The translations under genes and the position numbers were made by a program. From Streptomyces agglomeratus (GTDB lineage Bacteria > Actinomycetota > Actinomycetes > Streptomycetales > Streptomycetaceae): DNA of 64,000 nucleotides. The stretch spans positions 62,001 through 126,000 of the forward strand of contig NZ_MEHJ01000001.1 of the NCBI RefSeq assembly GCF_001746415.1. The letters run 5' to 3'. Of the stretch, positions 3,703 to 7,973 are shown one piece after another (positions within the stretch are counted from its first letter, which is position 1; every line of letters begins with the position of its first letter). The notes beneath the pieces were generated by a model. The model was not told the DNA's origin, searched no databases, and saw nothing but the letters and a program-made list of their open reading frames with translations.

Positions 3703-5139
3703 ATGAGTGTGCTGCAACACGGCGTCCCGCGGGATGCGTTTGCCGAACTGTCATGCTTCCGGACGGAGCTCTATGCCTGTCTGACCGGGCGGCGCGATGC
3801 GCTGTTCGAGCTGAGTGATGCCCTGCTGTGCGCGGATGGTCCGGTGAGGACGTTGGTCGAGCTGTCGTTGGAGCCTGAGCACCGGCGTGGGCATGGCGCC
3901 TTGTACGGCGGCCTGAACTGCGGGGATCTGGATGTGGCACGCCTGCGCAGGACGCTGGCAGGGCTGCCGCTTCCCCGCACGGCGTCGGGGCGGCTGGTCC
4001 TGGCGGTCGATGTGAGCAACTGGTTGCGGCCGGACGCGAATACCAGCCCGGACCGGATGTTCTGCCACACATACGGGCGAGGCAGAGGCTCGGCCCAGAT
4101 GATCCCCGGTTGGCCCTACTCCTTCGTTGCCGCTGTGGAGCCGGGCCGGACCTCGTGGACGGCCGTGTTGGACGTGCTCCGGCTGCGGCCCTGGGACGAC
4201 GCGATCGCCGTCACCGCCGGCCAGGTCCGAGAGGTGTTCCAGCGGTTGTATGTGGCAGGCCAGTGGCAGATCGGCGACCCGCCCGTCCTCGTCGTCTTTG
4301 ATGCCGGCTACGACGTGACCCGCCTGGCCTTCCTGCTCGCGGACCTGCCCGTGGAGTTACTGGGCCGGATGCGTTCGGACCGAGTCCTGTACTTTCCGCC
4401 TACGCCCCAGCCGGCGGGCAAGCGCGGGCGTAAACCCAAGCACGGGGCAGAGTTCACCTTCGAGTACCCGGCCACCCTGCCGGTCCCGTCCATCACCACG
4501 GTGACCGACACCACTCACTACGGGCAGGCCGTCGCCACGGCGTGGGACCGCCTGCATCCACTGCTGACCCGGCGCTCGGCCTGGGCCGACCATCCCGGAG
4601 AGTTGCCGATCATCGAAGGCACCGTCATCCGTCTGCGGGTCGACCACCTTCGCGGCGACCGCCACCCCCGGCCGATCTGGCTGTGGTGGTCGGCCACCGA
4701 TGCCACCGCCGGGGACGTGGACCGGCTCTGGCAGGCGTTCCTGCGCAGATTCGACCTGGAACACACCTTCAGGATGTTCAAGCAGACGCTGGGCTGGACG
4801 GCTCCCAAACTCCGCGAGCCGGCCGCCGCTGACCGTTGGACCTGGCTGGTCATCGCCGCCCACACCCAACTCCGCCTGGCCCGGCCCCTTGCCGAGGACC
4901 TTCGCAGACCCTGGGAGCGGCCCGCACGCCAAGGACGTCTCACCCCTGCACGGGTCCGCCGAGGATTTCGCCGCCTCCACGGCAAGGCCCCTCAACCGGC
5001 CGGTGCACCGAAACCCAGCACCGCAGGCCCAGGCCGACCAATCGGCACGAAGAACAAGCACCGTGCACGCGAACGCACCGTCGGGAAACAGGGCCAACCG
5101 GACCTCACGACAACCATCACAAGCAGCAGAGCTGGATAA
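3703..5139 (+). CDS. DDE transposase (IS4/IS701-like)
   Basis: 478 codons. Two Asp-bearing strands (LVLAVDVSNWLRPDA near residue 105 and VLVVFDAGYDVTRLA near residue 200) and a C-terminal Glu motif (FDLEHTFRMFKQTLGW near 350) form the catalytic triad. A Pro/Lys-rich tail after residue 430 (RPIGTKNKHRARERT) is probably DNA-binding. The protein shares about two thirds of its residues by eye with the copy at 6527-7843, which lacks this tail. Intact, so potentially active. The exact IS family name is uncertain; the short inverted repeats and domain order fit IS4 or IS701 relatives. Confidence 0.85.
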   Translation: MSVLQHGVPRDAFAELSCFRTELYACLTGRRDALFELSDALLCADGPVRTLVELSLEPEHRRGHGALYGGLNCGDLDVARLRRTLAGLPLPRTASGRLVLAVDVSNWLRPDANTSPDRMFCHTYGRGRGSAQMIPGWPYSFVAAVEPGRTSWTAVLDVLRLRPWDDAIAVTAGQVREVFQRLYVAGQWQIGDPPVLVVFDAGYDVTRLAFLLADLPVELLGRMRSDRVLYFPPTPQPAGKRGRKPKHGAEFTFEYPATLPVPSITTVTDTTHYGQAVATAWDRLHPLLTRRSAWADHPGELPIIEGTVIRLRVDHLRGDRHPRPIWLWWSATDATAGDVDRLWQAFLRRFDLEHTFRMFKQTLGWTAPKLREPAAADRWTWLVIAAHTQLRLARPLAEDLRRPWERPARQGRLTPARVRRGFRRLHGKAPQPAGAPKPSTAGPGRPIGTKNKHRARERTVGKQGQPDLTTTITSSRAG

Positions 5140-5172
5140 ACGTCAAGCTTAGGCTGCGTCCTATATACGGCT

Positions 5173-5451
5173 CGGTCGTTTCCTACGCGTACGAGCTACA
5201 CCATGGGGTGGGCTCGCTCCGGGGGTGTTCGCCTGCAGTCGGTCGTTCCCTACGCGTACGGGCTGCACGAGGCCTCCGTCTCTCTCCCCCGTCGAAACCT
5301 GCTTCGGTCGTTCCCTACACGTACGGGCTGCACTTGGCGGACGGACAGGTCGCGGATGTGCCACGGTCGTTCCCTACGCATACGGGCTGCACCAGGGACC
5401 GCCGCCTTGGCGGGGTAGCGGCCGGTCGTTCCCTACGCGTACGGGCTGCAC
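5173..5451 (-). CRISPR. orphan five-repeat CRISPR-like array (type I-E-like repeats)
   Basis: Five 29-nt repeats at 5173-5201, 5240-5268, 5305-5333, 5364-5392 and 5423-5451. Plus-strand core is GGTCGTTCCCTACGCGTACG followed by GGCTGCAC, always preceded by C. Repeats 2 and 5 are identical, 3 and 4 differ by one base and repeat 1 by three. Spacers are 38, 36, 30 and 30 nt and are unlike each other. Read on the minus strand the repeat starts GTGCAGCC, has a partly palindromic centre (TACGCGTA), and ends ACGACCG, in line with 28-29 nt type I-E repeats such as that of E. coli, which also ends in CCG. The degenerate repeat at the low-coordinate end fits a trailer, so a leader would lie above 5452, where TnpB DNA starts. 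No cas gene is visible in the window. Confidence 0.75.
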
Positions 5452-5472
5452 TCGATGATGCCCCGTGCAGCG

Positions 5473-6560
5473 TTAGAACAGGTTTGCCTGTTCTTGGCGC
5501 GGGTTGGGGAACGTCGGTGGATTACTCCGCCGAGGTGACACCGTGCCGGGTGGTCCGGTGCCTTCCCGTTTCGCTGTCTCCTGCTTCCGGCCCCGAGGGG
5601 CCGGAAGTCTGAAGGGGACTCCACGGGCGTTTTGCGTCTCCCCCCTACCGGGGGCGACGGGTGGAACAGGGTCTGCGACCACGGCGTGCCGTTCGATGTT
5701 CCGGGCGGCGTTCAGGTCCCGGTCCATGGAGAGGCCGCAGGTGGCGCAGTGGAACACCCGGTCGGCGAGCGTCTGGCTTGTGTCTTGCCAGCCGCAGTGC
5801 GAGCAGGTCTTGCTGGAGGGCCACCAGCGGTCCAGGACCGCGAGCTGGGAGCCGTCCAAGAAGTCTTATAAGCGAGCTGGCGGCGCAGCTCGCCGGGGGC
5901 GGAGTCGAGGATCGCCCGGTTGAGGCCGGCTTTCTGCCGCACCCGTTGGCCTGGGGCGGCGACGGTGCCGCGGGCCGAGCGGGTCATGCCCGCCACGTGC
6001 AGGTCTTCGACAGCGACCGTGGCGAAACTGGTCGCCAGTCGTTTCGTCAGCGCATGCAGGGCAGTGTCACGGCGCAACGCGACCTCGTGATGCAGCCTCG
6101 CGACGCGCCGCTTGGCCTTCTCCCGACGAGCGGATCCCCTTTGGGTACGCGCCAACGCACGGTGCGCCTTCACCAGGCGGCAGCCGGCGGAACGCAGGGG
6201 GGCGGGGTTGGAGATGAGGATGCTGTCCGGATCATCTTCGGTCAGGGGCTGGGAGAGTCCGGCGAGGACCTTGACCCCGAGGTCGACGCCGACCGTGCCG
6301 CGTCGTTGCTGCGCGCGCGAGGGGCCAGCGGGAACGTGCGAGGTGACCTTGCACAGTACGGAGGCGTACCAGCGGTGCCCGGCACGAGAGACGGTCACCG
6401 ACTGCACGACGGCTTCCCCGCGGTCGATGCGACGCTGCAGGCGTTTGGCGGACTCGTGGAGGCGGACCTCTCCGAAGGCGGGAAGGCGCAGGCGCCGGTA
6501 GCCAGCCAGCCGGATCCGGGGCCTCTTCACGTCGTGGTGGAGACGGCCGCGGTCGCACGG
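5473..6560 (-). pseudogene. tnpB: TnpB (RNA-guided nuclease of IS200/IS605), truncated and frameshifted
   Basis: The minus-strand reading from about 6555 shows the conserved middle and end of TnpB: the substrate-domain phrase HESAKRLQRRIDRG, RuvC strand 1 with Asp (TVGVDLGVKVLAGL), the Glu strand (TVAVEDLHVAGMTRS), then, after a frame change near 5860, the zinc ribbon (TCSHCGWQDTSQTLADRVFH, CATCG) and the last RuvC Asp (MDRDLNAARNIERH). The first 120 or so residues are missing: the sequence joins directly to the truncated end of IS copy 2. Two lesions (N-terminal loss, frameshift) make it non-functional as read. Its 3' end runs to a hairpin that abuts the CRISPR array. Confidence 0.8.
5476..5493 (-). 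repeat. TnpB-element terminal hairpin
   Basis: GAACAGGTTTGCCTGTTC, a perfect 7-bp stem with a 4-nt loop, spans the last codons (NLF) just before the stop of the TnpB frame. IS200/IS605-type right ends carry such a subterminal hairpin, and in these elements the 3' part of the gene plus this hairpin forms the scaffold of the omega RNA. Confidence 0.55.
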
Positions 6561-7843
6561 ACGTTGCGAAACCCCCGCCTGACCCGGGCGGGGGTGAGGC
6601 GACGGGGTTCGGTTCGTCGTTCCCAGGGCCGTCGGAGGTCTTCGGTGAGGGGCCGGGCGAGACAAAGCTGGGTATGTGCGGCGATGATCAGCCAGGTCCA
6701 CAGATCGGCGGTGTCGGCGCGGCGGATCTTCGGTGCGGTCCATCCGAGGGTCTGTTTCATCAGTCGGAAGGTGTGTTCCAGGTCGAAGCGGCGGAGGAAG
6801 GCCTGCCACCACCGGTCCACGTCCGCCGACGTGGCCGAGGTTGCGGAGCACCACAGCCAGACCGGTTTCGGTTCGCGGTCGCCCGGCAGGCGCTCGACCG
6901 TCAGGCGCATCAATGTGCCGTGCAGGACGGGTAGTTCGTCGTCCGCGTGCTCCAGCCAGGGGCCGCGGTGGGTGAGTCGGGGATGCATACGGTTCCAGGC
7001 CGTCGTCTCTGCCTTGCCGTAGCGGGTGGTGTCCGTGGCGGTGGTGACGTCGGGCTGGTGCCAGGTGTCGGGCTTGGCGAAGGTGAGGATGCCGCCGTGT
7101 CGGCGGGGCCGGCCGCCCTTCGGTCCGGAGCGGGCGGGGCCCGGGTCGCGGAGCATGACGCGGTCCGAGCGCAGTCGTCCGAGCAGCACGACCGGCAAGT
7201 CCCGCAGGGAGTGGGAGAGGTAGGTGACGTCGTAGCCGGCGTCCATCACGATCAGGATCTCGGGGTCGCCCGGCTTCCAGTGTCCCGCGTGGGCCAGGCG
7301 TTCCACGACCTCGCGGAGCTGGGCGGCGGTGACGAGTGTCGCATCGTCCGTGGGTCCGAGCCGCAGGGCGTCCAGGAGCCGGCACCAGGAGGTGCGGCCT
7401 GTTTCCAGAGCGGCGACGAAGGAGTACGGCCAGCCTGGGACGAACTGGTCCTTGCCGCGGTCGCCGCGTGCGTAGACGTGGCAGAACAGCCGGCCGTCGC
7501 TGGTGGGAGCGTCGGGGCGGAGCCAGTTGCTCACGTCCACGGCCAGTACGATCCGCCCGTCGGTCGTCTTCGGCAGCGGTAGGCCGGCCAGAGTGCGTCG
7601 CAGACGCGTCGGTTCAATCCGGCCGCGGTCCAGCCCCGAATACAAGGCGCCGTGTCCACGCCGGTGCTCGGCCGTCAGCGACAGCTCGACCAGGGTGTTC
7701 ACCGGCCCTTCCGCGCACAGCACCGCGTCGGTCAGCTCGAAGAGCGCGTCAGCCCGGGCATACAGGCAGTCGTAGAACTCGACACGAAAGCGGGACAACA
7801 CATCCAACGCCTCGCGTCCGGACACCTCGGCAGACAGACTCAT
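6527..7843 (-). CDS. DDE transposase (IS4/IS701-like), C-terminally truncated copy
   Basis: ATG 7843, 438 codons. Close relative of the transposase at 3703: it keeps both Asp motifs (IVLAVDVSNWLRPDAP, ILIVMDAGYDVTYL) and the Glu motif (FDLEHTFRLMKQTLGW). Homology to copy 1 stops after LTPARVRRGF near 6570; the last 14 residues (NVRATAAVSTTT) come from TnpB-side DNA, so about 45 residues of the basic tail and the left inverted repeat are lost. The DDE core is complete, but with one end missing the element cannot transpose by itself. A second start (MWM) two codons upstream is possible. Confidence 0.8.
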   Translation of the reverse strand: MSLSAEVSGREALDVLSRFRVEFYDCLYARADALFELTDAVLCAEGPVNTLVELSLTAEHRRGHGALYSGLDRGRIEPTRLRRTLAGLPLPKTTDGRIVLAVDVSNWLRPDAPTSDGRLFCHVYARGDRGKDQFVPGWPYSFVAALETGRTSWCRLLDALRLGPTDDATLVTAAQLREVVERLAHAGHWKPGDPEILIVMDAGYDVTYLSHSLRDLPVVLLGRLRSDRVMLRDPGPARSGPKGGRPRRHGGILTFAKPDTWHQPDVTTATDTTRYGKAETTAWNRMHPRLTHRGPWLEHADDELPVLHGTLMRLTVERLPGDREPKPVWLWCSATSATSADVDRWWQAFLRRFDLEHTFRLMKQTLGWTAPKIRRADTADLWTWLIIAAHTQLCLARPLTEDLRRPWERRTEPRRLTPARVRRGFRNVRATAAVSTTT

Positions 7844-7973
7844 CCACAACGGCCGTTCTCTGGTGCTTCATGACTCGACATCTCGAAGCGTGGAGAACGG
7901 CCGCCTCCGCCGTCCCCGGAAACACCGCAGATCAGCAGGTCGGGTGACGAGCGAGGATAAACGCCAAGCTCAG
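6566..7973 (-). mobile_element. IS4/IS701-like element, copy 2 (left end deleted)
   Basis: The right terminal repeat ATAAACGCCAAGCTCAG at 7957-7973 matches copy 1's ATAAACGTCAAGCTTAG in 15 of 17 positions. The opposite end is replaced by the TnpB remnant near 6566. The element stops 7 bp from the stop codon of the propeller gene. Confidence 0.65.
7850..7903 (-). promoter_or_regulatory. hairpin before transposase start (copy 2)
   Basis: CGGCCGTTCTC (7850-7860) and GAGAACGGCCG (7893-7903) are perfect 11-bp arms 32 nt apart. In the transcript the 3' arm ends 6 nt before the ATG at 7843. Position matches the hairpin of copy 1 although the arm sequences differ. Confidence 0.55.

Follow-up and report, generated by a model that had tools for sequence, protein, structure and literature searches.

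A short CRISPR array on the minus strand of a 64,000-nucleotide stretch of Streptomyces agglomeratus DNA (the window; bases 62001-126000 of the 8.33-Mb contig C1, so that the array lies ~67 kb from the start of the contig) belongs, judged from its sequence, almost certainly to a decayed type V-N (formerly V-U4; Cas12n/C2c9) CRISPR locus. The copy in the window reads as a relic, that is, its effector gene is truncated and frameshifted, its spacers are irregular in length, and its last repeat has decayed; it is the relic of a known, rare kind of system that had been misread as type I-E. In its working form, such a locus would encode a single TnpB-like nuclease of ~510-520 aa, the 3′ end of whose gene would double as the source of a tracrRNA; directly after the gene it would carry an array in which 29-nt repeats are separated by 32-nt spacers. 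Base pairing of the tracrRNA anti-repeat with the 3′ halves of the repeats would give, presumably after processing, a guide; this guide would direct Cas12n to DNA beside an AAN PAM, where the nuclease would be expected to cleave.

An earlier note on this DNA had described five 29-nt repeats, spacers of 38, 36, 30 and 30 nt (repeat starts separated by 67, 65, 59 and 59 nt from the low coordinate), a palindromic centre and a minus-strand end of ACGACCG, and we reproduced all of these. On the minus strand the repeat is GTGCAGCCCGTACGCGTAGGGAACGACCG, which contains the palindromic TACGCGTA; in 100 dinucleotide shuffles of the window, the maximum number of repeat matches was 0. From high to low coordinate, the repeats have 0, 1, 1, 0 and 3 mismatches to the consensus, so the worst lies at the far trailer end and the description of a degenerate array running from high to low coordinate stands. 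Within three mismatches the repeat occurs at only these five sites in the 9.13-Mb genome, that is, the further arrays with the same repeat for which the note had proposed a search are absent from this genome at that threshold; it also occurs in two of 392 congeneric genomes, the window's own being one of the two, and not hundreds of times singly, as the note had considered would speak against an array. An exact-pattern search of the genome-contig collection for the repeat gave 0 matches, and an Rfam search of positions 4800-6000 gave three, every one under the gathering score of its family, which we regard as chance. The phages and plasmids to which the note had looked for the origin of the spacers gave nothing: the four have no credible target in the phage collection, the plasmid collection or the 392 congeneric genomes. 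Their lengths of 30, 30, 36 and 38 nt, compared with mostly 32 nt in intact relatives, fit drift in a disused array.

Table 1. Features of the locus (positions of the window).
Feature	Position	Strand	Basis
DDE_5 transposase gene at the trailer end of the array	3703..5139	+	domain match
Array, five 29-nt repeats (plus-strand starts 5173, 5240, 5305, 5364, 5423)	5173..5451	-	
Repeat 5, trailer end, 3 mismatches	5173..5201	-	repeat scan
Spacer 4, 38 nt	5202..5239	-	array parsing
Repeat 4, no mismatch	5240..5268	-	repeat scan
Spacer 3, 36 nt (intact relatives usually 32 nt)	5269..5304	-	array parsing
Repeat 3, 1 mismatch	5305..5333	-	repeat scan
Spacer 2, 30 nt	5334..5363	-	no credible external match
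Repeat 2, 1 mismatch	5364..5392	-	repeat scan
Spacer 1, 30 nt	5393..5422	-	no credible external match
Repeat 1, effector-proximal, GTGCAGCCCGTACGCGTAGGGAACGACCG, no mismatch	5423..5451	-	repeat scan
tracrRNA-like region overlapping the effector 3′ end and running into repeat 1; conserved fold	5452..5643	-	alignment, fold
Anti-repeat CGTTCCC, pairing with GGGAACG of repeat 1 (5427-5433)	5507..5513	-	covariation
cas12n pseudogene, C-terminal part, residues 391-518 of the 518-aa sister, zinc ribbon; different frame	5473..5853	-	protein alignment
cas12n pseudogene, middle part, residues 154-392 of the 518-aa sister; frame of ORF 5712-7385	5847..6563	-	protein alignment
DDE_5 transposase gene abutting the broken 5′ side of cas12n	6527..7849	-	domain match

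The effector survives as two pieces (Table 1); residues 391-518 of the sister align at 5476-5853, and the stop codon of this C-terminal piece ends 21 nt ahead of repeat 1. Approximately the first 153 residues are missing and transposase gene sequence occupies their place; because these residues are lost and the rest lies in two frames, the window holds no intact effector of roughly 400-700 aa and cannot encode a complete Cas12n. The pattern of breaks is similar when the effector of another Streptomyces genome (G010) is the reference. The two flanking DDE_5 transposase genes are 64% identical to each other, and the one beyond the trailer repeat ends 33 bases from it. The earlier note was correct that the array sits between transposase genes, but the TnpB remnant, which it had treated as a separate element, is part of the CRISPR locus. 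Likewise, no working cas operon lies beside the array, but the statement that the window holds no cas genes does not hold, since PADLOC identifies the remnant as one of cas12n.

The PADLOC model Cas12u4 matches the window ORF with E=1.1e-100 (residues 278-511) and four intact relatives (509-518 aa) with E=7e-179 to 5e-200; a second model, PDLC01700, labelled Cas12f, scores slightly above it. In NCBIfam the best model for the relatives is IS607_TnpB (303.5-349.8 bits, just below the 350-bit cut-off), and no Cas12n model is among the results of that search. The genes of the relatives are open over 509-518 aa, and the three RuvC motif segments can be recognised in their sequences by eye. A review of AcCas12n names Actinomadura craniellae as the source species of this V-N effector (PMC11641405). 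A scan of species genomes found a locus in A. craniellae; the window pieces are 73% (over 247 aa) and 55% (over 123 aa) identical to its effector, which in turn is 68% identical to an intact sister on the NBC_00708 plasmid. With this sister as query, the best matches in the whole genome of the window are the window pieces themselves (70% and 75%). A second Cas12n-like gene (C1:8307724-8309535, ~15 kb from the opposite end of the contig) consists of three pieces 46-63% identical, has an internal stop and looks broken; no window-type repeat is found within nine mismatches in the 3 kb around it. The remaining similar genes in the genome are TnpB-like matches (30-42% identical).

The junction between gene and array is not peculiar to the window. 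The 269-nt segment reaching from the end of TnpB to repeat 1 has matches in 26 of the 392 congeneric genomes; we scanned 30 loci from this search for the repeat and aligned the 14 strongest distinct ones. In three genomes (G010, G126 and G344), the region is directly followed by a regular array of related 29-nt repeats, with 13, 5 and 6 copies, respectively, and in G166 by two repeats, at both chromosome ends. This G166 relic (L012, L014 and L039) is therefore probably in terminal inverted repeats. One repeat-like element each is left in G151, G040, G349, G175 (two loci) and a second G010 locus; in G151 (L019/L048), just a few bases beyond the lone V-N repeat, stands one I-E-like repeat that is inverted relative to it.

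In the plasmid collection, 72 records have some match to the region. We examined 12 of the 13 best (L081-L092), the 13th apparently corresponding to the G019 locus. Nine of the 12 (L081-L085 and L088-L091) carry four or more repeats in an array behind the gene; L086, L087 and L092 lack one. Among the intact arrays, that of L081 is closest to the array in the window, its repeat being GTGCAGCCCGTACGCGTGGGGGACGACCG. In the plasmid records the effectors are annotated as ‘transposase’ or ‘RNA-guided endonuclease TnpB family protein’, and the gene in L082 is shortened. On two plasmids, L087 (downstream of 5231) and L092 (downstream of 4231), an open Cas12n-like gene and tracr region are accompanied by one degenerate repeat-like element; these are possibly effectors that have lost their arrays. 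Many of the intact sister loci sit on linear plasmids. The scan of species genomes gave 26 loci in Streptomyces, Kitasatospora, Nonomuraea, Streptosporangium, Nocardiopsis, Embleya and Actinomadura (four of which may coincide with loci of the 392-genome set); repeats at a ~61-nt period are present in 13 of the 23 that were checked. Because the TnpB-like gene, the tracrRNA in its 3′ end and the array occur together in many loci, we consider them one unit, with the array directly after the effector gene, as in V-N, both in the window and in the relatives. The recurrence of the same junction in related loci also removes the proposal that the joining of TnpB DNA at 5452-5493 cost the array its leader.

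The 3′ part of the effector gene appears to encode a tracrRNA with an anti-repeat, as read from sequence, fold and covariation. We aligned 11 of the 14 strong loci from GGGGAGACGC through the end of repeat 1 (alignment A1); the other three (G019, G218 and G096) were omitted, their repeat or 3′ end being lost. In this alignment the anti-repeat/repeat helix is paired in 94.8% of 77 cells, compared with 83.8% in shuffles (0 of 500 as high), and four of its seven pairs have changes on both sides; none of the 500 shuffles equals the alignment in the paired fraction, in how many cells are doubly changed, or in covariation score. Of the five measures of covariation, two do not rise above the shuffles: the count of pairs with both partners changed (136/500) and that of further pair types (500/500). 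Sliding the partner of the helix lowers the pairing to 42-55%, and RNAalifold recovers the same helix when run unconstrained. The UUC/GAA of the window is a compensated variant of the UCC/GGA in G166. A simpler candidate, an anti-repeat directly upstream of repeat 1 (GCTGCAC in the window), was rejected; it is not common to all loci, and CGTTCCC, farther upstream, pairs consistently.

These results bear directly on the reading of the earlier note, in which an orphan type I-E array had its leader destroyed by the insertion of an unrelated TnpB element. The length and form of the repeat are indeed I-E-like, and a Cascade-like operon is present on another contig of the same genome. However, covariation with TnpB DNA would not be expected of an orphan I-E array, the anti-repeat lies within the 3′ end of the TnpB-like gene, and the junction of TnpB and array recurs across species and genera with differing spacers; we judge this reading very improbable, and effector homology together with the covariation of tracrRNA and repeat assigns the locus almost certainly to V-N/Cas12n. 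The full I-E set (cas3-cas8e-cas11-cas7-cas5-cas6e-cas1-cas2 with array) is absent from the window locus. The note had proposed a search of the genome for I-E genes, and some of these are present: the only Cas7e (PF09344) match is on contig C2 (741 kb; L007, 7273-13340), in an operon of fused cas8e-cas11 (639 aa), cas7e, cas5e and cas6e that is followed by three or four degenerate repeats of different sequence. No cas1, cas2 or cas3 is recognised beside this operon, and Cas1 (PF01867) has no match anywhere in the genome. As a partner for the array, this Cascade was rejected: its own repeats differ, and the 20 kb examined there hold no copy of the window repeat, even when nine mismatches are allowed. 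The same Cascade variant is found in G019 (L080, 4742-11255), where a 638-aa ORF (ResIII, weakly SNF2) lies just before the cas8e-cas11 fusion; the corresponding ORF in the genome of the window looks like the C-terminal half of this ORF, which is perhaps a helicase replacing Cas3.

The spacers of intact relatives suggest toward which elements these loci are directed. We collected 73 spacers, leaving out the duplicate arrays L083 and L091, and sent 68 (the five L082 spacers were set aside) to the phage collection, the plasmid collection and the 392 congeneric genomes; plasmid matches were read at one best place per record in 40 of 41 records, so other targets may exist. Among these best places, at least 16 distinct spacers match phages or plasmids over their full length outside their own arrays. 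Apart from L084 spacer 2, they give 15 protospacers, 14 on Streptomyces plasmids and one on phage ZL12; six of the 14 target plasmids are circular, with lengths of 88-100 kb, and the matches in pSAM1 and in the listed records H52 and H63 lie in or close to annotated phage genes. The 5′ flank is AAG at 11 of the 15 protospacers, whereas the background frequency of this triplet in the DNA concerned is 0.0086 (P about 3e-20); the others are two GAA, one GAG (ZL12) and one with AAG one base farther out. Thus, in the relatives AA occupies positions -3 and -2 in 11 of 15 cases, and in 11 of those 11 position -1 is G; the window spacers, having no target, do not contribute. The count excludes the target L099 (inside an array) and partial matches of L090 spacer 1; second sites of counted spacers have AAG (L115 and L119) or ATG (L138) or are themselves an array (L114). 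Five further spacers have targets in the 392 genomes (16 of 30 loci were read, with matches of more than three mismatches excluded, e.g., L090 spacer 6 with flank ACA and four mismatches); three are flanked by AAG, one by AAA and one by CGG, which brings AAG to 14 of 20. The target of L085 spacer 3 resembles a terminator hairpin. In the three loci that were read, the target of L085 spacer 6 (NZ_CP108083.1) has two or three mismatches to the spacer and is preceded by GAAG; this stretch is present in dozens of Streptomyces genomes and is possibly a chromosomal gene. Arrays turn over, as judged from L085 and L089, which have their end repeat and downstream DNA in common but no spacer.

With these data we can weigh whether the locus is a CRISPR array at all or a repeated set of IS607-type TnpB element ends, that is, several omega-RNA ends in series. 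The effector is close to IS607 TnpB, and the first repeat stands where the omega RNA of a TnpB element would be expected to end; but the arrays of relatives reach 17 near-identical 29-nt repeats with regular, unique spacers of mostly 32 nt, and these spacers match plasmids and a phage, mostly beside AAG. We regard repeated element ends as scarcely credible. A decayed V-N locus might, alternatively, still yield guide RNAs that serve another effector in trans, or a small regulatory RNA: the fold of the tracr region and the anti-repeat are intact in the window copy, and several genomes keep the tracr region and one repeat beside a broken effector. Such a residual function seems unlikely, since the spacer lengths have drifted, one repeat has three changes, the only other close Cas12n relative in the genome (the second gene on C1) also looks broken, and the RNA could have survived just as well because decay is slow.

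The resemblance of the window repeat to I-E repeats (29 nt, a stem, and a final CCG) is real and probably meaningful. We propose, as a reading with somewhat better than even support, that Streptomyces Cas12n (V-N) arrays are loaded not by enzymes of their own locus but by Cas1-Cas2 from type I-E systems encoded elsewhere, on the chromosome or on plasmids. On this reading, the effector, itself derived from TnpB, would have evolved a repeat acceptable to the I-E integrase and an AAN PAM that contains the I-E AAG; Cas12n plasmids would thereby borrow the writing of memory, aimed mainly at rival plasmids and phage-plasmids, as a class 2 counterpart of IV-A3, and the window would hold the remains of one such locus. 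We favour loading in trans because cas1 and cas2 are not adjacent, most of the targets are flanked by AAG, the arrays have an I-E-like geometry, and arrays of I-E or I-E-like type contain two of the same spacers. Specifically, cas1 and cas2 are absent from 11 annotated plasmid neighbourhoods (L081-L092 minus the unannotated L086; 4-5 kb per side, in a PLSDB gene table that is incomplete), and in G010 and G344 the Cas1 matches are on another contig or 7.4 Mb distant. L084 spacer 2 is also a spacer of an array with I-E-like repeats on the NBC_00826 plasmid (32 nt identical, same ends). L090 spacer 9 recurs with a one-base offset in an array of G224 (48 seed copies) that has a Cas7e match ~5 kb away, and the I-E version would begin exactly after AAG at its plasmid protospacer. 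The consensus V-N repeats of the relatives all terminate in G; in type I-E, PAMs include AAG and the last repeat base is then derived from the PAM (PMC8482600). The fixed G at the targets looks like a signature of acquisition because the PAM reported for AcCas12n is AAN (PMC11641405).

The I-E control for this PAM is small and mixed. G010 has both systems, and one of its I-E spacers has a perfect target with AAG. When 67 of 70 chosen spacers (from 112 in two I-E arrays) were sent to the 392 genomes, three targets within three mismatches were obtained; their flanks are GCC (in a stretch that recurs at nine loci), CAA and CGC, and none is AAG. In plasmids, the same spacers matched five records, and the two examined hold the perfect target after AAG and a four-mismatch target with AAG one base farther out; the spacer with the perfect plasmid target has an additional AAG site with five mismatches. 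Used as a query in its entirety, an I-E array matched mostly I-E-like repeats in the plasmid collection and nothing in the phage collection. The plasmid records matching a Streptomyces I-E array number 170 (154 from Streptomyces; at least 40 pieces in 127), so I-E-like arrays seem very common on such plasmids. Across genomes, Cas7e is found in 8 of the 12 with strong V-N matches and in 143 of the 380 others (Fisher p=0.067), a co-occurrence that is suggestive only; G126 has a regular V-N array and no Cas1 or Cas7e match in its genome.

The apparently orphan I-E array is thus reinterpreted as what is left of a Cas12n locus. It also shows that a TnpB gene lying beside an array can be the CRISPR system proper, which, given the public plasmid labels, is a trap for annotation. 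The PAM, the geometry and the shared spacers in the relatives point to ordinary type I-E acquisition in trans as a testable answer to where Cas12n spacers come from; if true, it would also explain the unusual AA-type PAM of Cas12n. In the titles and opening lines of abstracts that our literature search covered, we found no statement of I-E-loaded V-N arrays, and an earlier one is possible in Chen 2023, Altae-Tran 2023 or Tordoff 2025. In published work, the missing acquisition module is noted (PMC7889808), type IV and V-M systems on plasmids are discussed (PMC11656645), and V-N is named only in passing (PMC12669027).

Among known systems, AcCas12n is like the loci described here in effector sequence, the size of the relatives' effectors, the location of the tracrRNA inside the Cas12n mRNA, the lack of adjacent adaptation genes seen and the 5′ AA-type PAM of the relatives (PMC11641405); it differs in that the window copy is truncated and frameshifted with irregular spacers, and in that the AA-type PAMs of the Streptomyces relatives have G as third base (11/11), compared with AAN. 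Streptomyces I-E arrays share with the V-N arrays 28-29-nt repeats with a stem, a 60-61-nt period, AAG at one clear I-E target and two V-N spacers that are also found in I-E or I-E-like arrays; however, the V-N locus has no Cascade or Cas3, and its repeat pairs with a tracrRNA. In TnpB elements, the omega RNA overlaps the 3′ end of the gene. IS607 and IS200-605 TnpB belong to the same protein family as the effector (NCBIfam NF038280 and NF040570), but a repeat array with spacers from mobile elements replaces the single guide of TnpB. Finally, plasmid type IV-A3 systems, which according to Benz 2024 reportedly acquire spacers in trans, differ in having a class 1 multi-subunit effector of unrelated proteins, whereas they resemble the V-N relatives in being plasmid-borne, in lacking adaptation genes, in carrying anti-plasmid spacers and, if our proposal for the V-N relatives is correct, in being loaded in trans.
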